Origin: a virus
Length of the DNA stretch: 64,000 nucleotides
IMG/VR virus record: IMGVR_UViG_3300015360_002415
Location: 1 to 64,000 of that record
Strand: one strand, 5' to 3'
The translations under genes and the position numbers were made by a program. The notes beneath the pieces were generated by a model, which was not told the origin of the DNA, searched no databases, and saw only the letters and a program-made list of their open reading frames with translations. Below are positions 3,305 through 30,772 of this stretch, piece after piece (position 1 is the stretch's first letter; each line of letters opens with the position of its first letter).

Positions 3305-3958
3305 ATGGGACTGTTTTATTACGTTATTGACACGGAAACTACTGGATTAAAAGCTGATTACCACGAGATGACCGAAATTGGTATTATTCGTTGTGCCGAT
3401 AGAGTGCAGATACATCGATTGCTTAGGTGTGATTATCCAGAAAGAGCCAGTTTTGATGCTCTTACCATTACAAAAAAGACAATGGCTGATTTAGAGGTTG
3501 GGCACGAGAAGAGTGATGTTATTGAGGAATGTGATAAATTTTTCTCTGAAGATGGCGGTACTCCAAACCATAGATGTATTATCGCACATAATGCACCATT
3601 TGATAGAAAATTTCTACATGCTCTATGGGCGAAAATGGGGAAACAATTCCCAGCCAATCTATGGCTAGATACTATGGGTATGACTAAATCATATATTAAA
3701 ATGATTGGTCTAGATGCAGAGCATAAAGCTAAAGGTCTGCCAAAACCAAAGGTTAATCTTCATGCTGCTTGTGATATTGCGCAAATAAAGAAGTTTTCAG
3801 AGGCTCACAATGCTAAGGTAGATAGTAGAAATACATACTTACTTCATAAAGCATTGATAGAGAAGAATGTAGATCATCTTCCTCTTATCAAAACAGAAGT
3901 ACATAATGTTAAAGTAGAAGAAGGTGGTTTAGACCCGGATTTACTTGATTTAGAATGA
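3305..3958 (+). CDS. DEDDh 3'-5' exonuclease (DnaQ/RNase T fold)
   Basis: Predicted metal-dependent 3'-5' exonuclease that could proofread or process DNA or RNA. Exo I is DTETTG (residues 9-14), Exo II is IIAHNAPFDRKFL (about 97-109), and Exo III is the H-x4-D element HNAKVD (about 168-173). The 217-residue length fits a single-domain exonuclease. A second DEDDh enzyme lies at 15442 and the two are only moderately alike outside the motifs. The stop overlaps the next start (ATGA). Confidence 0.85.
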   Translation: MGLFYYVIDTETTGLKADYHEMTEIGIIRCADRVQIHRLLRCDYPERASFDALTITKKTMADLEVGHEKSDVIEECDKFFSEDGGTPNHRCIIAHNAPFDRKFLHALWAKMGKQFPANLWLDTMGMTKSYIKMIGLDAEHKAKGLPKPKVNLHAACDIAQIKKFSEAHNAKVDSRNTYLLHKALIEKNVDHLPLIKTEVHNVKVEEGGLDPDLLDLE

Positions 3959-4605
3959 AAGCAATTAGTTTAGATACTTTATTCATGAAATTGAGAAGGC
4001 AGATATTGCTTGCAGAATCTTATTCTGAAATCAAAAATCTGGCTTTTATCATTAAATCTTGCAGGTTAAAACCTTATTCATATTTATTTGAAGCTAAAAG
4101 CTCTAAGCTCATTCTATATAAATGGTGGTTTGATGAGTATGGCAACTCATTGCGTATACTTAAAAAACAAAGGCTAAAAATTACCTATAATGATTTAGCC
4201 TTAAATAAAGATAAAATATCATCTACTGATCTTTACTATGGTTTACCTTTAGATAAGATATCAAGAATGAGTAAGTTAGTATTTATATGTGCCGGAAGAG
4301 ATGAAGATATGTTAGAAGATTGTTTTTTTATCTCTTATCTAGGGATTGATAACTATCTTAGAACATATCTTTATATGTTTGGTGAATTGACGCAAGTATC
4401 CAGCTTATTATTAGGTATTGCTAATTTGAAAGCTATTGCAAAGAATGTCGATATAAAATATTTTCAAGAATTGAAAAAGAAAGAAAATATAGTCCTGCCT
4501 TGCCAGGATGCTCGGGTATGGTTATCTTACAACCCTCCGAGTGAAGAGTTTCTAAAAATCATAGAGAAGCAGCATGAAGCTGTATTCCTATTAACCCAAA
4601 GGTAA
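3955..4605 (+). CDS. Hypothetical protein, helical
   Basis: A 216-residue protein with no family I recognise. It is mainly helical by composition, with many Lys, Leu and Ile, and has no membrane segment or signal peptide. It sits between the exonuclease (4-base overlap) and IF-1 (10-base gap) in one plus-strand operon, so it is presumably expressed with both. Confidence 0.6.
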   Translation: MKAISLDTLFMKLRRQILLAESYSEIKNLAFIIKSCRLKPYSYLFEAKSSKLILYKWWFDEYGNSLRILKKQRLKITYNDLALNKDKISSTDLYYGLPLDKISRMSKLVFICAGRDEDMLEDCFFISYLGIDNYLRTYLYMFGELTQVSSLLLGIANLKAIAKNVDIKYFQELKKKENIVLPCQDARVWLSYNPPSEEFLKIIEKQHEAVFLLTQR

Positions 4606-4615
4606 TCCAATATAT

Positions 4616-4828
4616 ATGTCAGACGAAAAACTAGAATTTGAAGGCGAAGTTATTGATGCGAACAAAGGTAAGTTCAAGGTAAAAATTAGTGAAAATTATA
4701 CAATTCTTGCTACATTAAGTGGAAAAATCCGCCAGAACTCTGTTAGAATTCTGGTCGGAGATAAAGTTAAAGTAATTGTATCAGAGTATGATACGACTCA
4801 AGGAAGAATTACTTACCGAAACAAATAA
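4616..4828 (+). CDS. infA: Translation initiation factor IF-1
   Basis: A 70-residue single S1/OB-fold protein matching bacterial IF-1 in length and pattern along its whole length: GEVIDANKGKFKVKI, then LSGKIRQNSVRILVGDKVKV and a C-terminal YDTTQGRITYRNK. Bacterial IF-1 reads SGKMRKNYIRILTGDKV at the middle block, as I recall it. IF-1 binds the 30S A site with IF-2 and IF-3 at initiation. The conserved basic residues are retained, so 30S binding is plausible. It is the last gene of the plus-strand operon, converging on 4830. Phage-encoded IF-1 is uncommon and suggests modulation of host translation. Confidence 0.85.
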   Translation: MSDEKLEFEGEVIDANKGKFKVKISENYTILATLSGKIRQNSVRILVGDKVKVIVSEYDTTQGRITYRNK

Positions 4829-4829
4829 C

Positions 4830-5786
4830 TTAACCTATAGAGTTTAAGAAGTTCTCAATTCTTTGTAAAAACTGTATTCTACCGCTCTGTGGTTTGGCTG
4901 GAGTATAGGTTGCAACTTCTTTAGACTCTTCTGGTTTCGTAGCTAATGGCTTATCACCCGCTGGTGAACTTAAAGGTTTGTCAGCGGGTTTTTCTTTTGG
5001 ATCTGACTTAGCTCCAGTTGGAGCTTCCGCTAACTGTGGACCCTTGCTAATATCATATTTTTTTACACCAGGAGTATGACCGATGGTTTGGTAAAGTTTA
5101 CCAAACTTAGGATCAGTCATAAGACTATCCATAGTAGTTTTCATAACTTGACCAGAGGGTAAAGTTACTTCTACTTCATTAGATACTAATCTTGCACCTG
5201 AAGCATATTCAGAGTGACTAGCAATATCATGAGAGCTAATGTTACCTTTTTGAATAGGGGTTCCATCAGCATGATACCAGCCAGTTATACCTAATCTATC
5301 AGCTTGGTCTGGTTGAATAATATCTTTCATATGACCAGCTACTAAAGCTCCAGGTTTTTTCTTATCAAGTTCTTGTTGTATTTTATCATTAAATGCAACT
5401 GAAGTATCCGAGTCGCTTATTTTTCTAGCGACGACTTCATCAGCAGTATAGTATTTACCATTAATTTTAGCGCCACCACTCATAGGAGTTGGAGGTAGTT
5501 TTGTATCAGCAGCTTGCCAAATTTGTTTAGACATCTTAGTTGTTGGAAGATTCATACCAAAATGATCAGCTACACGTTGTGCGGTTGTTCCGGTCATAGG
5601 AACTCTAATGCCATCGATGCTTACGTAGTCAGGCATTACCTTATAAGTAATTTTTACACCTTTAGGACCATCTACTGTGACTGGTACTAGATTTTTTGGT
5701 GGACCCATTGAAACTAATGTATTATAAATTAATTGTTCTCTTTTAGGACCGGCTGGTGTTTTTAAGAATTCATCTTTGAAGCTCAT
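4830..5786 (-). CDS. Conserved protein, paralogue of the 5796 gene, with proline/lysine-rich tail
   Basis: A 318-residue protein sharing blocks with its upstream neighbour: TYKVMPDYVSIDGIRVPM, TAQRVADHFG, AGHMKDII, a GWYHADGTPIQ segment, then a His and SEYASGARLVSNEVEV. These blocks resemble a family I recall from secreted bacterial proteins, where a GHKKD motif and a later H-x-x-Y-x-D-Y-S-H-G region are conserved. The pattern could be a metal or catalytic site, but no function is established to my knowledge. Residues 240-302 are Pro/Lys/Glu-rich and look disordered. The end (FLQRIENFLNSIG) could be an amphipathic helix tag. Confidence 0.65.
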   Translation of the reverse strand: MSFKDEFLKTPAGPKREQLIYNTLVSMGPPKNLVPVTVDGPKGVKITYKVMPDYVSIDGIRVPMTGTTAQRVADHFGMNLPTTKMSKQIWQAADTKLPPTPMSGGAKINGKYYTADEVVARKISDSDTSVAFNDKIQQELDKKKPGALVAGHMKDIIQPDQADRLGITGWYHADGTPIQKGNISSHDIASHSEYASGARLVSNEVEVTLPSGQVMKTTMDSLMTDPKFGKLYQTIGHTPGVKKYDISKGPQLAEAPTGAKSDPKEKPADKPLSSPAGDKPLATKPEESKEVATYTPAKPQSGRIQFLQRIENFLNSIG

Positions 5787-5795
5787 TTGTTACCT

Positions 5796-6590
5796 TTAGT
5801 ATTTTGTAAATGTTAATATACCTTCATCAGACACTAAAGAAGATAATTCTTTACTTGAGAATACATCTGTAATTCCCATTAAATTTCCATCCACTAAAAC
5901 ATCATTAGCTATCATTCTGATACCATGACTATAATCCTCATAGCTATCTTCATGATCAACAGGATTCAATCCTTGAATTGGTTGACCATTAGCTTGTATC
6001 CAGCCATAGATAGCTACTCTTTTTTTAGGATTACCTGGGCTAAGTCTATTTGTCAATACAACATCCTTTTTATGACCTGAAGTTAATTGAGCTGAATCTT
6101 TGCCAGCTAATTGGGCTTGTATTCTACGATTATGAATACCAACACGATCCATACTCATCATACTAGAATCATATGGTGGACCCCATGGTAATGGAGATAG
6201 TTTGTTAATAGAAGCTTTCCAAATATCATTAACCATTTTTCTTGTTGGCATAAAGCAATCAAAAGTATCAGCTATTTTTTGAGCAGTATATGGATTCATA
6301 GGCATTCTTACATAATCAGAGTCACTACCAATACATAAAAAATCCGGCATGACTAGATAAGTAATATTATGCTTATTAGTTGCAACTGTAATAGCTTTGA
6401 ATTTTCTAAGAAAATCAGGCATATTGCCGTTTAAAATTTCATACAGTATATTTTGTTGCCTTATTATTCTATTAACGCCCATATTTTTAGTAACAAATTG
6501 GCTACCAGAGATAGCATTACTATCTCTAATTGGTATAAGTGGCATTGAGGTTGATGGATTATCAATCAATTCAAATATATTTATTGGCAT
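5796..6590 (-). CDS. Conserved protein, paralogue of the 4830 gene
   Basis: A 264-residue protein with the conserved blocks in better state than its neighbour: TYLVMPDFLCIGSDSDYV, YTAQKIADTF, MPTRKMVNDIWKA, SGHKKDVVLT, VAIYGWIQANGQPIQ, and YEDYSHGIRM. The His/Asp arrangement (GHKKD, then DYSHG) is suggestive of an enzyme, perhaps cell-wall acting, but this is inference. It lacks the proline-rich tail. Only 9 bases separate it from the downstream paralogue, which points to tandem duplication. It is divergent from the IMP dehydrogenase-like gene. Confidence 0.65.
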   Translation of the reverse strand: MPINIFELIDNPSTSMPLIPIRDSNAISGSQFVTKNMGVNRIIRQQNILYEILNGNMPDFLRKFKAITVATNKHNITYLVMPDFLCIGSDSDYVRMPMNPYTAQKIADTFDCFMPTRKMVNDIWKASINKLSPLPWGPPYDSSMMSMDRVGIHNRRIQAQLAGKDSAQLTSGHKKDVVLTNRLSPGNPKKRVAIYGWIQANGQPIQGLNPVDHEDSYEDYSHGIRMIANDVLVDGNLMGITDVFSSKELSSLVSDEGILTFTKY

Positions 6591-6622
6591 AGTACCCCCT
6601 AATCTTTAACAATTGCCAGGTA

Positions 6623-6650
6623 TTGACAAGTATTTAACAAGATTTACTAT
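6623..6650 (+). promoter_or_regulatory. Sigma70-type promoter before the nucleotide cluster
   Basis: TTGACA at 6623-6628 and TACTAT at 6645-6650 are spaced by 16 bases, with a TGCCAGG word just upstream as in the 604 promoter. The leader to the ATG at 6700 is about 40 bases and carries an AGGAG ribosome site. This would be a host-sigma early promoter for guaB-like, thyA and folA. Confidence 0.6.
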
Positions 6651-6699
6651 TATACCACAATATGGAGATCACTTAATATGATCTTTAGGAGATAACTTT

Positions 6700-7746
6700 A
6701 TGATAGATAGAATTAAAGATGGGCTTTGTTATGATGATGTTTTATTACAGCCACAGTACTCTTCTGTAAAGAGTCGTTCTGAGATAGATATTTCTGTTAA
6801 ATGGGGCATGTTACAATTTAGTCATCCAGTTATACCTGCTAACATGAAAACTGTTACTGGTGTTGATATGGCGGCAGCTATAATGGATACAGGCGGATTA
6901 GCCATTCTACATAGGTTTATGCCAATAGAAGATCAAGTAAAAGCAGCACACTCTCTAATAAAAATAGAAAATAATGCAATGCATTTGATGATGTCTGTTG
7001 GGGTTAAAGAAGATGATAAGGATAATATTGGTTTATTATATCGGGCTGGCGTACGAATGATTTGTATTGATATTGCTCATGGTGATTCTGTTCAATGTAT
7101 CGATATGATTAAATGGATTAGACAACAGTATTCATATATATTTATTGTTGCAGGAAATGTAGCTACTGGTCAAGCTGCTGCTCGATTATGGAAAGCTGGA
7201 GCCAATGTTGTTAAAGTTGGCGTTGGTCCTGGTAGTTTATGCACCACCAGAATTGAAACTGGCAATGGTGTTCCACAGTTAAGTGCTTTAATTGATGTTG
7301 CTAAAGTAAGAGATGATCTTATTCTTGAGTATAAGAATGAAGAATCTAATGTTAGTCGCGTATTCCCATTTATTGCAGATGGTGGTATTAAGAATGCTGG
7401 TGATATAGTTAAAGCTTTATGTTTTGCTGATATGGTTATGGTTGGTAATTTGTTTTCTGGATGCGATGAAACACCCGGTGAGATTCTAAGTATAGATGGT
7501 AATAAATACAAACAATATGTAGGCAGTTCTACACATAAAACCAATCATGTAGAAGGTGTAGCAGCTATCGTTCCTACAAAAGGAAAGATGTCAGAAGTTT
7601 TAACTAAGTTACTTGAAGGATTACGTTCAGGTTGTTCTTATCAAGGTTCTAAAAATTTAACAGAACTTAAGGATAATCCAGTATTTATGAGAATAACTAG
7701 TGCAGGATTGAGAGAGTCTCATCCACACGACGTTAAAGTAATATAA
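6700..7746 (+). CDS. IMP dehydrogenase/GMP reductase family enzyme lacking CBS domains
   Basis: TIM-barrel purine enzyme. The catalytic cysteine loop GPGSLCTTR and the following GNGVPQLSA are clear, as are the ADGGIKNAGDIVKAL phosphate-binding region and a C-terminal flap-like region ending in GLRESHPHDVKVI. That C-terminus and GLRSGCSYQG match IMP dehydrogenase better than GMP reductase, so oxidation of IMP to XMP (committed step to GTP/dGTP) is favoured. At 348 residues it lacks the CBS pair of bacterial GuaB, which normally mediates nucleotide feedback. First gene after the promoter at 6623; AGGAG ribosome site. Confidence 0.85.
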   Translation: MIDRIKDGLCYDDVLLQPQYSSVKSRSEIDISVKWGMLQFSHPVIPANMKTVTGVDMAAAIMDTGGLAILHRFMPIEDQVKAAHSLIKIENNAMHLMMSVGVKEDDKDNIGLLYRAGVRMICIDIAHGDSVQCIDMIKWIRQQYSYIFIVAGNVATGQAAARLWKAGANVVKVGVGPGSLCTTRIETGNGVPQLSALIDVAKVRDDLILEYKNEESNVSRVFPFIADGGIKNAGDIVKALCFADMVMVGNLFSGCDETPGEILSIDGNKYKQYVGSSTHKTNHVEGVAAIVPTKGKMSEVLTKLLEGLRSGCSYQGSKNLTELKDNPVFMRITSAGLRESHPHDVKVI

Positions 7747-23858: not shown

Positions 23859-24025
23859 GATAAATCACTAATGAGCCTTTTAAACTCTTCAATTGTTAAT
23901 TCAACTGCATTAGTAATCTTCTTCAACGGATTATTTCCATCTTTAGCTTGAATCATAATCATAACTTTACCATTATTTGATTTACGAGCTTCAATGAAAC
24001 TCTTATCTTTAAACTCTATTTTCAT
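23855..24025 (-). CDS. Small hypothetical protein (56 residues)
   Basis: A frame from ATG 24025 to TGA 23855. Both ends overlap neighbours by 4 bases as ATGA, strong evidence that it is translated. The product (MKIEFKDKSFIEARKSNNGK ... AVELTIEEFKRLISDLS) looks like a small two-strand plus helix domain. No family recognised. Confidence 0.65.
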   Translation of the reverse strand: MKIEFKDKSFIEARKSNNGKVMIMIQAKDGNNPLKKITNAVELTIEEFKRLISDLS

Positions 24026-24288
24026 GTAAATGCCTTTATCTTTTTGAATCTATTCCATCTTTTAAGTAAATTCTCTATACTAGAAACGAGTACTAATTTA
24101 TGATATTTTATTCTCCAATAGCCACGTTGTTCAACTATACCGCTGGCACTATAAGGTAGCCATAAAGTCAGATTATCAATTGGATTTTCACATGGAAACG
24201 TCTTTTCAAAAATAGTAATAGTGTCAGAGTAATACTTTTGTAACTCTTTTTTTATTATCTTTAAAGCTAATTTAGTTTTATGTTTCAT
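24022..24288 (-). CDS. Small protein, paralogue of the 24285 gene
   Basis: An 88-residue protein sharing with its neighbour an initial M-(K/R)-H-K-x-x-L-A-L segment, FEKTFPCENP against FEENFPCEHP, and a C-terminal SSIENLLKRWNRFKKIKAFT against SSVENFWKRWDRFTNLAAFT. The pair arose by tandem duplication. Function unknown. Overlaps both neighbours by 4 bases. Confidence 0.6.
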   Translation of the reverse strand: MKHKTKLALKIIKKELQKYYSDTITIFEKTFPCENPIDNLTLWLPYSASGIVEQRGYWRIKYHKLVLVSSIENLLKRWNRFKKIKAFT

Positions 24289-24536
24289 GTAAAAGCTGCT
24301 AAGTTAGTGAATCGATCCCAGCGTTTCCAGAAGTTTTCTACACTAGAAATTTGAACATGATAAATATATTGCCATTCTTCACCGTTTTTAGAGTAAGTAA
24401 GGAATGCTTGACCTACCATAAATGGATTAGGATGTTCGCATGGGAAATTTTCTTCAAAACTCTCTAATGTTGCCCTACTATACTGCGATAAGGTTTTATC
24501 AATTTCATCTAATGCTAAATATATTTTATGTCTCAT
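24285..24536 (-). CDS. Small protein, paralogue of the 24022 gene
   Basis: An 83-residue protein with the same layout as its downstream paralogue (see the shared FPCEHP and KRWDRF blocks). Likely a compact alpha/beta domain with a C-terminal Trp/Arg-rich helix. It directly follows methionine aminopeptidase with ATGA overlap. Confidence 0.6.
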   Translation of the reverse strand: MRHKIYLALDEIDKTLSQYSRATLESFEENFPCEHPNPFMVGQAFLTYSKNGEEWQYIYHVQISSVENFWKRWDRFTNLAAFT

Positions 24537-26149: not shown

Positions 26150-28666
26150 TTACAATATTTCAGCGGCGGTCGTAGCAAGCCTGCTTCTCTCACCCTTGGT
26201 GAAAGTGATATGCCCTGCCAAACCGGAGTGTTTAAACTTTTCAATTACATGCGTCAATCCGTTGCTTAAAGCATCGAGTGACGTGTTATCGATTTGTTCT
26301 ATATCACCTGTAAGTATAATTTTTGTACCTTCTCCTGCACGAGTTAGGATGGTTTTTACATCTTCTTTCGTTAAGTTCTGGCACTCATCTACCAAGATAA
26401 TTGCTTTTGGAATACTTCTACCACGGATATATGTGATGGCTTCCATTTCAATCTTACCCTTCTTTTGGTACATTTCTAATTCACGTTTCCAATTATCGCC
26501 ATTCTTACTAGTGAATAAATGTTCAAAATTATCTAGAATAGCTTGGAACCATGGACCTAACTTTTCTTCCATTGTATTATGAGTTACTATAAAATTATCA
26601 GTCAAATAAAGATGTTCTGGATTTTCCACTAAAATGCATTGAACCTCTTTTTCACCAACAAAATCAATTGATTTAATAGATATTTTAGATGGATTCTTAT
26701 TTTTATTATGTCTATTAGCTTTTCTTTTTAAGAAAAATGGGTTTATTTCTCCAGGCAAAGAAATTGTAAACTCGTAAGATACTCTTTTTGCAATTATTTT
26801 AACGCCATTTATAATATTACTTTTTCCTATTCTATTTCTTTCATGTATAGTAGCTCTTCCACCTAATGATTGCACAAGCTCTACCATATCGTTTGCTAAT
26901 TTTAATGATGTGGTACAAAAAGACATCTCGCCATTATTTTTTATAGTTCCATCTGTATCCATTAAACCACGAAGTAAATCTATACGATCCTCTATAGAAG
27001 ATTGCAAATAAATTTTAGGAATAAATTTATCATATGATTTTTTATTAAACAAATTAAGACTTAATAACTCTCTAATTATAGGATGAGAGCTTACCATTTT
27101 TTTATTTATGTATGTATAAGTAAAACCAGAAATTTGTTTATTTTTATTACAATTTCTACTAATAGATCCTGCTCTCATATTCATAGTTTTGGCTGCTTTT
27201 GATATACAATCATAAGTAGTTGAATCACCATTAGTAACATTTGTAATTTTTACAGATTTTGCACCCCTTTTCCCATATTGAATTTTTGGATAAAATCTAT
27301 AAGATAATTTATTTATATTAGAATTAACCACATTACAATCAAATTTTGACAACTCTGATACTACACGTTCAATTACCTCATTATCTTTAGTATAATAAGT
27401 TACATGATTATCAGTAACAGAGCCATCGCCTAGCAATGCGCCTAAAGAATATGGTGGTATTAAAAGTTGTTTTTTAGAAAAATGAACTGGTAAGTTTCTT
27501 GGTAAATAATATTTATTCTTATCTAAGGAATCAATAATTATTTTAGTTGAAACAATTTTATTTTCATTATTATGAGTTACTGACCATAAATGATCTTCGC
27601 AGCATTCTGTGCTTGTGCCATCAGAAGTAGTTAATTTATAGACTTTTTTATTACCTTTGGGAAAAATATTTAAAACTTTTGTTGCTAAACCATCTCTACC
27701 AATTACTTTCATTCCTGGAATGATTTCTCCCATTGTTTTCCAGCCATCTGGAGTTACGATTTTAGCATCAAGTGGTTGTGGGCCAGGCAAATAGCCAATA
27801 TCATTCCCGACAGCTTGAATTGGTCTATAAATAATAAACTTATCATATGCTTTTTGATTAATTACTAATTCTAATGCAGCAGCAAGAACCATTAAGCTCT
27901 TACCTGTACCAGCCTTACCAATCAATGTGACCAAATCAACATTTTTATCCATCATAAGATCAACAGCGAAAGTTTGTTCTTTGTTTCTGCATGATATACC
28001 CCATGGATAGTACTTCTTGACAAGTTTAACTTTATCATCAGATACTTTACGTCCCATGGCAATACCATCACCATTTTCATTTTCAAACATAACACATTCA
28101 TTGTGATGAAGATTTAGGTCGAAAAATTGTGGATTGATATGTCCAAATTTTTGAAGTTCTAATCCAGCTTCTTCATGAATAAAAGTCTGGTTTCCAGCGA
28201 ATAGATCAGTAAATGAATAGTTATGTTCTTCATATGACTGAGCGCCCATGCCTCTTGCTTTTGCTTTAATCCTTAAATTGATGTCATTGCTTACCAATGT
28301 AACATCATTGGTGGGGTGAGATAGAAAGTTTAGATATGCACAGGCTAAAATCTGTGTATCGCCGTATGCTGGATCACCGAATCCAGAATATTGTGACGTT
28401 GTAGTATCAATATGTTCAGCATCAACTCTAATGAAAATATCATTATCTATCAAAATACCAACAGAAATATCTCCTAAACTGCTTAATTCATCTATCAATC
28501 TAATACTGACTCTGGCATTCTTACCTGCGCCATCAGACTGTTTCTTTAGCTTATCTAATTCGTTTAGCACAACAATAGGGATGATGACATCACAATGTGC
28601 AAAGCTCTTGTAAGAGGATGGATCAGTAACTAAAACCGAGGTATCTAAAACGATTGTTTTTCTCAT
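26150..28666 (-). CDS. phoH: PhoH2-type protein (PIN plus PhoH ATPase) with an intein
   Basis: The precursor has 838 residues. The exteins (1-295 and 698-838) join to a 436-residue PIN-PhoH protein. The PIN domain holds acidic residues at Asp8, Glu36, Asp103 and Asp128, typical of an RNase. The PhoH domain has Walker A GKAGTGKS (250-257) in the N-extein and Walker B ILVDECQ in the C-extein. The known bacterial relatives (PhoH2/YlaK) are RNA-unwinding and -cutting enzymes. The intein sits within GNDIGYLPG|TMEEKLG, between the Walker motifs, so the ATPase is inactive until it splices. The upstream gene overlaps its start as ATGA. Confidence 0.88.
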   Translation of the reverse strand: MRKTIVLDTSVLVTDPSSYKSFAHCDVIIPIVVLNELDKLKKQSDGAGKNARVSIRLIDELSSLGDISVGILIDNDIFIRVDAEHIDTTTSQYSGFGDPAYGDTQILACAYLNFLSHPTNDVTLVSNDINLRIKAKARGMGAQSYEEHNYSFTDLFAGNQTFIHEEAGLELQKFGHINPQFFDLNLHHNECVMFENENGDGIAMGRKVSDDKVKLVKKYYPWGISCRNKEQTFAVDLMMDKNVDLVTLIGKAGTGKSLMVLAAALELVINQKAYDKFIIYRPIQAVGNDIGYLPGPQPLDAKIVTPDGWKTMGEIIPGMKVIGRDGLATKVLNIFPKGNKKVYKLTTSDGTSTECCEDHLWSVTHNNENKIVSTKIIIDSLDKNKYYLPRNLPVHFSKKQLLIPPYSLGALLGDGSVTDNHVTYYTKDNEVIERVVSELSKFDCNVVNSNINKLSYRFYPKIQYGKRGAKSVKITNVTNGDSTTYDCISKAAKTMNMRAGSISRNCNKNKQISGFTYTYINKKMVSSHPIIRELLSLNLFNKKSYDKFIPKIYLQSSIEDRIDLLRGLMDTDGTIKNNGEMSFCTTSLKLANDMVELVQSLGGRATIHERNRIGKSNIINGVKIIAKRVSYEFTISLPGEINPFFLKRKANRHNKNKNPSKISIKSIDFVGEKEVQCILVENPEHLYLTDNFIVTHNTMEEKLGPWFQAILDNFEHLFTSKNGDNWKRELEMYQKKGKIEMEAITYIRGRSIPKAIILVDECQNLTKEDVKTILTRAGEGTKIILTGDIEQIDNTSLDALSNGLTHVIEKFKHSGLAGHITFTKGERSRLATTAAEIL
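26576..27781 (-). mobile_element. Class 3 intein with LAGLIDADG endonuclease in PhoH
   Basis: 402 residues (precursor 296-697). The first residue is Pro where class 1 inteins have Cys or Ser (start PQPLDAKIVTPDGWKT). The class 3 signature WCT is complete: Trp361 in CEDHLWSV (block B, two after the His), Cys677 in EVQCILVEN (block F position 4), and Thr695 before the terminal His-Asn. The +1 residue is Thr698. The homing endonuclease has two motifs, LGALLGDGS (about 408-416) and LLRGLMDTDG (about 564-573), with a NUMOD1-like segment between (about 470-520). Class 3 inteins splice via the block F Cys, and this one appears intact. Confidence 0.87.
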
Positions 28667-29074: not shown

Positions 29075-30772
29075 TTAAGCTTCGCACGCCTTGCAGTCAT
29101 TTTCGCTGCGAGAAGCTAAATCACTTTTAATAACACCATCGCTTCTAAGATAATATAAAGTCTTAAGACCATTTTTCCATGCAGCAATATGAGCATCATG
29201 AATATATTTAGCTGATGAATTAGAAGCAAAAAATAAATTAACAGATTGTGCTTGATCTACCCATTTTTGCCTTTGAACTGCTAATTTAACTATAGTATGT
29301 TGATTAATCTCTCTAGCAGTTAAGAAAACTTCTTTTTCATTATCACTAAGAAAACTCAAATGTTGTATACTTCCACTCTGTTCATTTATAGATTTCCAAA
29401 TTTCTGGAGTATTCTTTTCTTTTTCAATTAGAAGTCGTTCCAAAATCAAGTTTTTTCTAATAAATGTTCCTTTTGCCGATTTTTGAGTATAAACATTTGC
29501 GGACAATGGTTCAATTCCAGCACTATGACCACCTGAAATAGTAGAATTAGAAACTGTTGGAGCAATAGCTATTAAATGCGTATTACGTCTATCAAAACCT
29601 TTGCACCATTCTGGCTCACCTAATTCTTTAGCTAATATGGCAGTTTCGAATTCAGCCTTCTCTCTTATTGTTCTAAAGATTTCCGCATTCAATTGCATTG
29701 TTTCAAAACAATCAAAAGGTAAACCTTTTTCCTGTAACATTGAATGCCAACCTAAAACTCCAATACCAATAGCCCTTCCCTTAATGGCTGAATTTCTAGA
29801 GGCTTCCATCCCTTTAATATGTTCGGTCTTTTTAATATATTCAGATAAAACAGCGTCTAGAAATCTAACTGCAATATTTACAGTATCAGTATCTTTCCAT
29901 TCATCCCAACGAACAAGGTTCAATGATGATAGACAACATACAAAACTATGTTCTGGATCTGTGTACAATGTAATCTCACTACAGATATTTGATGTCTTAA
30001 CAACTAGTCCATTATCTGTATAACATTTTGGATTGTTATTATTTACATTATCTGAAAAGAATAGATATGGCTCTCCTGTTTCTACTCTAGCTTTAAGAAT
30101 TTCAGCCCATAATGCACGTTTATTTCTATCACCGTCAATCATAGAATTCATCCAAGCATCTGAAATACAGATGCCATGATTAATGTTTAAACAACGACGA
30201 TTAACATCACCTGTTGGTCTTCTTAGATTAATGAATTCTTCTATATCTAAATGCTCAATTGGTAGATAAATAGCTGAAGCACCTCTACGAGTTGATCCTT
30301 GTGATACGCTTACTGTTGTAGTATCGAATACTTTTGCCCAAGGGATAACTCCTTCAGATATTCCATTACCTTTAATCTTAGCACCTCTACCACGAATATC
30401 ACCAAAATAAATACCAACACCAGCACCATTCTTAGATAAAATTGCAAGCTCATAATTCTTCATGAAGATAGAATCCAAATTGTCAGCAACATGAATTGAG
30501 TTGCAAGATATTGGTAATCCTCTATCAGTACCTAAATTAGAACATACTGGAGATGCTGGGCACAACCAGTTTTTCCACATAACATCAAAGAATTTCTCTT
30601 CCCACACTTTAGAATCTTCATAATAACTTGCGGCTGCTTTAGCAAGTCTCGCATACATTTTACGAGGAGTCTCATCTTTCAATAAATATCCAGATGATAA
30701 TGTTTTGTAACCAAACTCTTCCATCCATTCTGGTGCTTCGCCTGCCGCTTTTAATTCATCTAATTCGTTCAT
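29075..30772 (-). CDS. nrdA: Ribonucleoside-diphosphate reductase, large subunit
   Basis: Class I RNR alpha: reduces NDPs to dNDPs with NrdB. Visible catalytic residues are the first redox Cys in PISCNSIHV, the N-x-C-x-E loop SNICSEI, the second redox Cys in CCLSSLNL, the paired Tyr in LKTLYYLR, and the C-terminal CKAC pair that receives electrons. The 565-residue length is shorter than host NrdA (about 750), because the N-terminal ATP cone is missing, so overall activity regulation by ATP/dATP is probably lost. NrdB follows upstream by 34 bases. Confidence 0.95.
   Translation of the reverse strand: MNELDELKAAGEAPEWMEEFGYKTLSSGYLLKDETPRKMYARLAKAAASYYEDSKVWEEKFFDVMWKNWLCPASPVCSNLGTDRGLPISCNSIHVADNLDSIFMKNYELAILSKNGAGVGIYFGDIRGRGAKIKGNGISEGVIPWAKVFDTTTVSVSQGSTRRGASAIYLPIEHLDIEEFINLRRPTGDVNRRCLNINHGICISDAWMNSMIDGDRNKRALWAEILKARVETGEPYLFFSDNVNNNNPKCYTDNGLVVKTSNICSEITLYTDPEHSFVCCLSSLNLVRWDEWKDTDTVNIAVRFLDAVLSEYIKKTEHIKGMEASRNSAIKGRAIGIGVLGWHSMLQEKGLPFDCFETMQLNAEIFRTIREKAEFETAILAKELGEPEWCKGFDRRNTHLIAIAPTVSNSTISGGHSAGIEPLSANVYTQKSAKGTFIRKNLILERLLIEKEKNTPEIWKSINEQSGSIQHLSFLSDNEKEVFLTAREINQHTIVKLAVQRQKWVDQAQSVNLFFASNSSAKYIHDAHIAAWKNGLKTLYYLRSDGVIKSDLASRSENDCKACEA

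Follow-up and report, generated by a model that had tools for sequence, protein, structure and literature searches.

The window analysed here is a stretch of 64,000 nucleotides (positions 1 to 64,000) from the virus record IMGVR_UViG_3300015360_002415, which is 66,280 bases long. Genes on that record include those for a myovirus-type baseplate wedge, a ribonucleotide reductase, DnaB, and a UvsW-like protein. The open reading frame considered in this work encodes a PIN-PhoH (PhoH2-like) precursor. Both PhoH (PF02562, E=7e-42) and PIN_4 (E=3e-27) are matched above the Pfam cut-off, NF053827 is matched in part (E=2e-74), and the protein has the composition expected of PhoH2, namely an N-terminal PIN domain followed by a PhoH ATPase with Walker A and Walker B motifs. 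The ATPase is present in two halves separated by a LAGLIDADG region. This insert is the sole intein detected, no second one having been found in the window. The large subunit gene of ribonucleotide reductase, which adjoins phoH, appears to carry an intein of its own in relatives (L007/L080 and L029/L091), with a block F/G-like sequence ...ITHN/CSEITL in L029 (here and below, a slash marks an intein–extein junction or an insertion point); the window gene (29075-30772) is intact at the equivalent place (SNICSEITLY). Two small open reading frames beside the M24 peptidase gene, 24022-24288 and 24285-24536, form a tandem pair of paralogues (43% identity, E=1e-20).

The limits of the insert are given by intein-free alleles of the same gene. 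Four of these run straight through the junction as GYLPG/TMEEKL, with the junction sequence GNDIGYLPGTMEEKL, and their identity to the joined exteins is 72% (L026, L034), 70% (L027), and 67% (L028). Since the intein-free relatives read through the junction, both intein ends are fixed, and wrongly placed ends are rejected. An earlier note on this DNA, made from the letters alone, had placed the intein at 26576-27781 and numbered Pro296, Trp361, Cys677, and Thr695 in the precursor; these values proved exact when the sequence was read again. The features are collected in Table 1.

Table 1. Features of the PIN-PhoH precursor gene in the window and, in the last three rows, genes with two inteins at other loci (positions there are those of the locus)
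Feature	Position	Strand	Basis or remark
PIN-PhoH (PhoH2-like) precursor gene, 838 aa + stop	26150..28666	-	Pfam/HMM matches
PIN domain, residues 5-146	28229..28654	-	Pfam PF13638
N-extein, residues 1-295, ending GNDIGYLPG; Gly295 = residue -1	27782..28666	-	Intein-free alleles
Walker A GKAGTGKS, residues 250-257	27896..27919	-
Predicted class 3 intein, 402 aa, residues 296-697	26576..27781	-
Intein residue 1, Pro296, non-nucleophilic	27779..27781	-
Intein Lys42, residue 337	27656..27658	-	Covaries with residue 1 and extein residue -1
Trp361 = TrpB:12, in ECCEDHLW	27584..27586	-	Aligned to Trp67 of 6bs8
LAGLIDADG motif 1, residues 406-417, around SLGALLGDGS	27416..27451	-
NUMOD1-like segment, residues 470-503, between the LAGLIDADG motifs	27158..27259	-	PF07453
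LAGLIDADG motif 2, residues 564-575, around LLRGLMDTDGT	26942..26977	-	PF14528
Cys677 = CysF:4, predicted to attack first and to form the branch	26636..26638	-	Aligned to Cys118 of 6bs8
Thr695 = ThrG:5, THN motif	26582..26584	-	Aligned to Thr137 of 6bs8
Asn697 = G:7, last intein residue, preceded by His696	26576..26578	-
Extein residue +1, Thr698	26573..26575	-
C-extein, residues 698-838	26153..26575	-
Walker B ILVDECQN, residues 757-764, in C-extein	26375-26398
Two-intein PhoH gene, L012 (= L085)	3501-7247		Inteins at Walker A and LPG
Two-intein PhoH gene, L222			Inteins at Walker A and LKG
Two-intein SNF2-like helicase gene, L373			Inteins at Walker A and GASG/TP

The partners of the insert in HMMER alignments are the M. 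smegmatis DnaB class 3 intein 6bs8, the M. chimaera DnaB1 intein (6rix, 6riy), and gp41-1. In the alignment to 6bs8, Trp66, Cys382, and Thr400 of the intein fall on Trp67, Cys118, and Thr137, the residues whose roles as B:12, F:4, and G:5 have been defined previously (PMC6195587, PMC5222942). As is typical of class 3, residue 1 is not a Cys, Ser, or Thr nucleophile and the +1 residue is Ser or Thr (here Thr); HisB:10 and the C-terminal His-Asn are also present. Across 263 non-redundant relatives, no variation is seen at HisB:10, CysF:4, ThrG:5, or the final His-Asn, and 262 of them have TrpB:12. A WCT set arising by chance is rejected, given this invariance and the register with solved class 3 inteins. 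The claim of the earlier note that a class 3 intein with a complete WCT set lies here is therefore confirmed by alignment and family alike, the Cys and Trp occupying F:4 and B:12. The AF2 model of the intein (pLDDT 88, pTM 0.81) retrieves, over its whole length in Foldseek, the HINT + LAGLIDADG inteins TliVMA (7qsu) and PI-SceI (1ef0), and its splicing half retrieves the class 3 inteins 6bs8, 6rix, and 6riy, with a probability of 1.00 for both 6bs8 and 6rix across some 80 columns. The model of the precursor (pTM 0.50) is too weak for placing the intein on PhoH.

The nuclease, described in the earlier note as intact, appears so: the acidic residue is kept in both LAGLIDADG motifs, and PF14528 (LAGLIDADG_3) is matched with E=8e-13. 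The NUMOD1-like segment named in the same note is probably present as well. The window copy scores 19.3 bits, below the Pfam gathering cut-off of 22.8, and the domain is matched at E<=0.01 in 4 of 18 members, the best sibling having E=2e-6. Of 169 relatives, 24 have such a segment, PhoH and non-PhoH alike (L233, L244). Outside the PhoH GYLPG site it is seen at PhoH-like Walker A sites and in other ATPases (L223, L225, L233, L244, L280). In block B (CCEDH), CxxH replaces TxxH or DxxH at intein residues 60-61 (27599-27604); CysB:7 is present in 165 of the 263 relatives, a sample biased towards it, since ECCEDHLW served as a search pattern. One intein of the PhoH GYLPG site (L033:4434-5330, 299 aa) has decayed LAGLIDADG motifs and intact splicing residues.

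Judged by these features, the insert is very probably a class 3 intein, intact and mobile, in the PIN-PhoH ATPase of a phage. In the expected reaction, CysF:4 (Cys677) would attack the carbonyl of Gly295 with assistance from HisB:10 and ThrG:5, forming a thioester branch, and the leaving group at the N-junction would be the ring nitrogen of Pro296. The acyl group would then move to Thr698 (+1), Asn697 would cyclise, and the exteins would be joined as GYLPG-TMEEKL. Proline can be allowed at residue 1 because the class 3 route needs no nucleophile there. By means of its LAGLIDADG nuclease, the intein would spread by homing to phoH alleles that lack it, an activity that the intact motifs and the patchy distribution suggest.

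Other readings of the insert have to be weighed against this one. The intein could be degenerate, with splicing abolished and PhoH function lost or supplied by the host, and a non-splicing class 3 intein is indeed known in Arsp-FB24 (PMC3196547). That intein, however, is without CysF:4 and HisB:10, both of which the window intein has; with its catalytic positions all intact, the exteins conserved, and the frame open, degeneration is very unlikely. A class 2 route, in which the +1 residue attacks the N-junction directly, is hardly credible. A nucleophile at residue 1 is absent there too, but class 2 consists of KlbA orthologues that have Cys at +1 (PMC4031507), and this mechanism is rejected because the +1 residue of the window intein, which carries the WCT triplet, is Thr. 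As for function, the earlier note correctly located the intein between Walker A and Walker B and proposed that splicing would gate the activity. Because the intein parts these motifs, the precursor is probably inactive before splicing. Regulated splicing, for example redox control through CysB:7 or CysB:6 beside CysF:4, would find a precedent in the inhibitory disulfide of the related DnaBi1, which involves its catalytic Cys (PMC6195587), together with the CxxH block B of the window intein's clade. However, a protein with an intein in one of its essential motifs can be active only after splicing; this need is true of most inteins, and position alone is no sign of control. No evidence of regulated splicing turned up, and gating of PhoH by this means is quite unlikely.

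The census of residue 1 drew its loci from viral contigs, bacterial genomes, and phage records. Inteins were excised with N- and C-terminal block profiles, and 263 were kept at <85% identity. The search patterns were independent of residue -1; one of them required Ala or Pro as residue 1, and those for block B were biased towards ECCEDHLW. Because relatives were found by similarity to the window intein, distant members of class 3 are covered less well than near ones. Seeding a scan with the terminase intein of Klebsiella N1M2 brought in a single locus. The host names GroEL, SNF2-like, and terminase were read from flanking sequence alone.

Residue 1 was found to track the last residue of the N-extein. 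Where residue -1 is Gly, Pro1 is present in 39 of 41 inteins; where it is Lys, Pro1 is present in 0 of 193 and Ala1 in 174. Arg, Glu, Trp, Tyr, Leu, Asn, or Thr at -1 is never followed by Pro1, and the remaining four Pro1 cases comprise three after Ala (NGA/T, an apparent terminase) and one after Gln (Beatrix). The association between Gly-1 and Pro1 is strong (Fisher p=1.6e-39, kinship ignored). The Gly-1 sites are GYLPG/T or S in PhoH, AGDG/TTT in GroEL, and GASG/TP in an SNF2-like protein. The earlier note regarded Pro1 in PhoH as unusual, a view that the census does not sustain: of the 263 class 3 inteins, 43 have Pro1, which with few exceptions comes after Gly, and all inteins detected at the PhoH GYLPG site start with Pro. 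Mutual information with Pro1 is second highest at position 42, directly behind position 1. Lys42 accompanies 35 of the 39 Gly-1/Pro1 rows, and Gln42 accompanies 146 of the 174 Lys-1/Ala1 rows. Exceptions at residue 1 are Gln-1/Pro1 in the TerL of mycobacteriophage Beatrix, Gly-1/Asp1 in the TerL of Redno2 and Optimus, and Gly-1/Cys1 in L448; at position 42, L328, L221, L222, and L408 lack Lys42.

The match is one of amino acids. The Gly-Pro junction is written with 12 different GGN-CCN codon pairs, from which it follows that no fixed DNA motif is involved; a cause at the DNA level, for instance a palindromic codon pair that never varies, is rejected on the same count. In genes with two class 3 inteins (L012 and L222 in PhoH, L373 in the SNF2-like protein), residue 1 varies by site within the gene, and Pro is present only at the Gly-1 site. 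After GK, the intein starts with Ala (L012), Ala (L222), or Gly (L373), and Pro follows LPG, LKG, and GASG, respectively. Phage GroEL class 3 inteins (L038, L043, L057, and others) lie in the nucleotide-binding motif AGDG/TTT and have Pro1 except in L448 (Cys1). In L068 and L069 (= L123, L130), the N- and C-terminal parts of the GroEL intein are in different frames, owing to a frameshift, an assembly error, or a split intein; the near copies L043 and L044 are intact.

Since such a pattern may also reflect common descent, kinship has to be considered. Trees of 263 and 67 rows were built leaving out positions 1, 2, and 42; the rows are class 3 relatives, all with CysF:4 and ThrG:5 and all but one with TrpB:12. 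The best 263-row tree contains seven Gly-1 changes. In our reading, Pro1 moves along in six of these; the seventh, in Redno2 TerL, carries no information. A sign test on the six of six informative changes gives a two-sided p=0.03, with some of the branches unsupported. On the strongly supported branches of this tree there are three pairs, about two concordant, one showing no difference, and none against. The careful 67-row tree yields three supported independent pairs, all concordant, a number too few for significance in a sign test.

The same trees bear on the possibility that the Gly-1/Pro1 link is simply inherited, a Pro1 lineage having chanced on two Gly-1 sites while residue 1 is neutral. 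Two clades, at the GroEL GDG site and the PhoH GYLPG site, do hold most Pro1 inteins, and strongly supported branches carry few changes. However, the AU test rejects Pro1 as one inherited lineage (all Pro1 rows as one clade, p=2e-90), and likewise the PhoH GYLPG-site rows as one clade (p=0.001), with groups in both cases defined after tree inspection. Moreover, L010/L013, L328, and the SNF2-like L373 have Pro1 amid Lys-1/Ala1 inteins. At the PhoH GYLPG site, L010/L013 combine Pro1 with Lys42 and L328 combines Pro1 with Gln42, and they look like separate invasions. At least two different lineages, both with Pro1 + Lys42, have probably entered this site. L011, a copy in Walker A of PhoH, groups as sister to the majority of GYLPG-site inteins; its residues are Ala1 and Gln42. 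Inheritance alone is consequently an unlikely explanation of the link.

Co-adaptation of the intein N-terminus to its extein neighbour remains the preferred reading, with a probability of roughly 0.55. According to this reading, Pro1 and Lys42 would be adaptations to Gly-1. A flexible Gly-1 could relax the junction, and the imide bond of Gly-Pro may restore the strain that Ala1 gives after Lys; a place for Lys42 near residue -1 is a guess. Strain at the N-junction has been proposed for the AceL NrdHF class 3 intein, in which A1G abolished splicing (PMC7891396). Covariation is what the alignments display; the splicing chemistry, the homing activity, and the role of strain are inferred. In its full form, and with the balance leaning slightly in its favour, the proposal is that class 3 inteins entering a new host must re-match residues 1 and 42 to residue -1 (Pro1/Lys42 for Gly, Ala1/Gln42 for Lys), that this has arisen repeatedly, at least twice at one PhoH site, and that Gly-Pro imide strain enables the attack by CysF:4.

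Going by sequence, the window intein is typical of the class 3 inteins of phages, and Pro1 is ordinary for a Gly-1 site; the main interest is the site-matched Pro1/Lys42 pattern. Residue 1 of class 3 inteins has no nucleophilic role; some of these inteins have Ala at this position, others Pro. If the proposal is true, a two-residue code tracking residue -1 would offer a simple example of how a selfish element adapts to one new site after another. Such a code would help in selecting class 3 inteins where a Gly junction is to be engineered and could be tested by swapping the two residues.

Proline at residue 1 may already have been recorded for a mycobacteriophage class 3 intein. Literature searches, whose incomplete coverage makes them weak evidence, returned nothing on class 3 inteins in the PhoH of phages and no published rule relating residue 1 to residue -1; a search for NUMOD1 within LAGLIDADG inteins returned nothing relevant. 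Class 3 inteins numbered 1701 in a 2020 count, 82.5% of them with LAGLIDADG motifs (PMC7891396). For class 3 inteins in PhoH there are published mycobacterial examples, from M. fortuitum and from M. xenopi (Fig. 6 of PMC6195587).

The known systems can be compared with the window intein at several levels. PI-SceI and TliVMA share the overall fold, a HINT splicing domain with an inserted LAGLIDADG nuclease, but differ in their class 1 chemistry (Cys1); we know of no NUMOD1-like insert in either. The M. fortuitum and M. xenopi inteins are likewise class 3 inteins in PhoH, the level at which they were compared. The bacterial PhoH class 3 inteins found here occupy the MRGR/TL site and have Ala1, in contrast to the GYLPG site of the window intein. 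M. smegmatis DnaBi1 (6bs8) and M. chimaera DnaB1 (6rix/6riy) share with it the WCT set, HisB:10, the His-Asn end, Ser/Thr at +1, and the HINT fold. They have Ala1 after the Lys of Walker A, whereas the window intein has Pro1 after Gly-1, CxxH rather than DxxH in block B, and a full LAGLIDADG nuclease. The phage GroEL class 3 inteins (L038, L043) differ from the window intein in host protein, in having no NUMOD1 segment, and in forming a separate clade, and yet they share with it Gly-1, Pro1, Lys42, and Thr+1.
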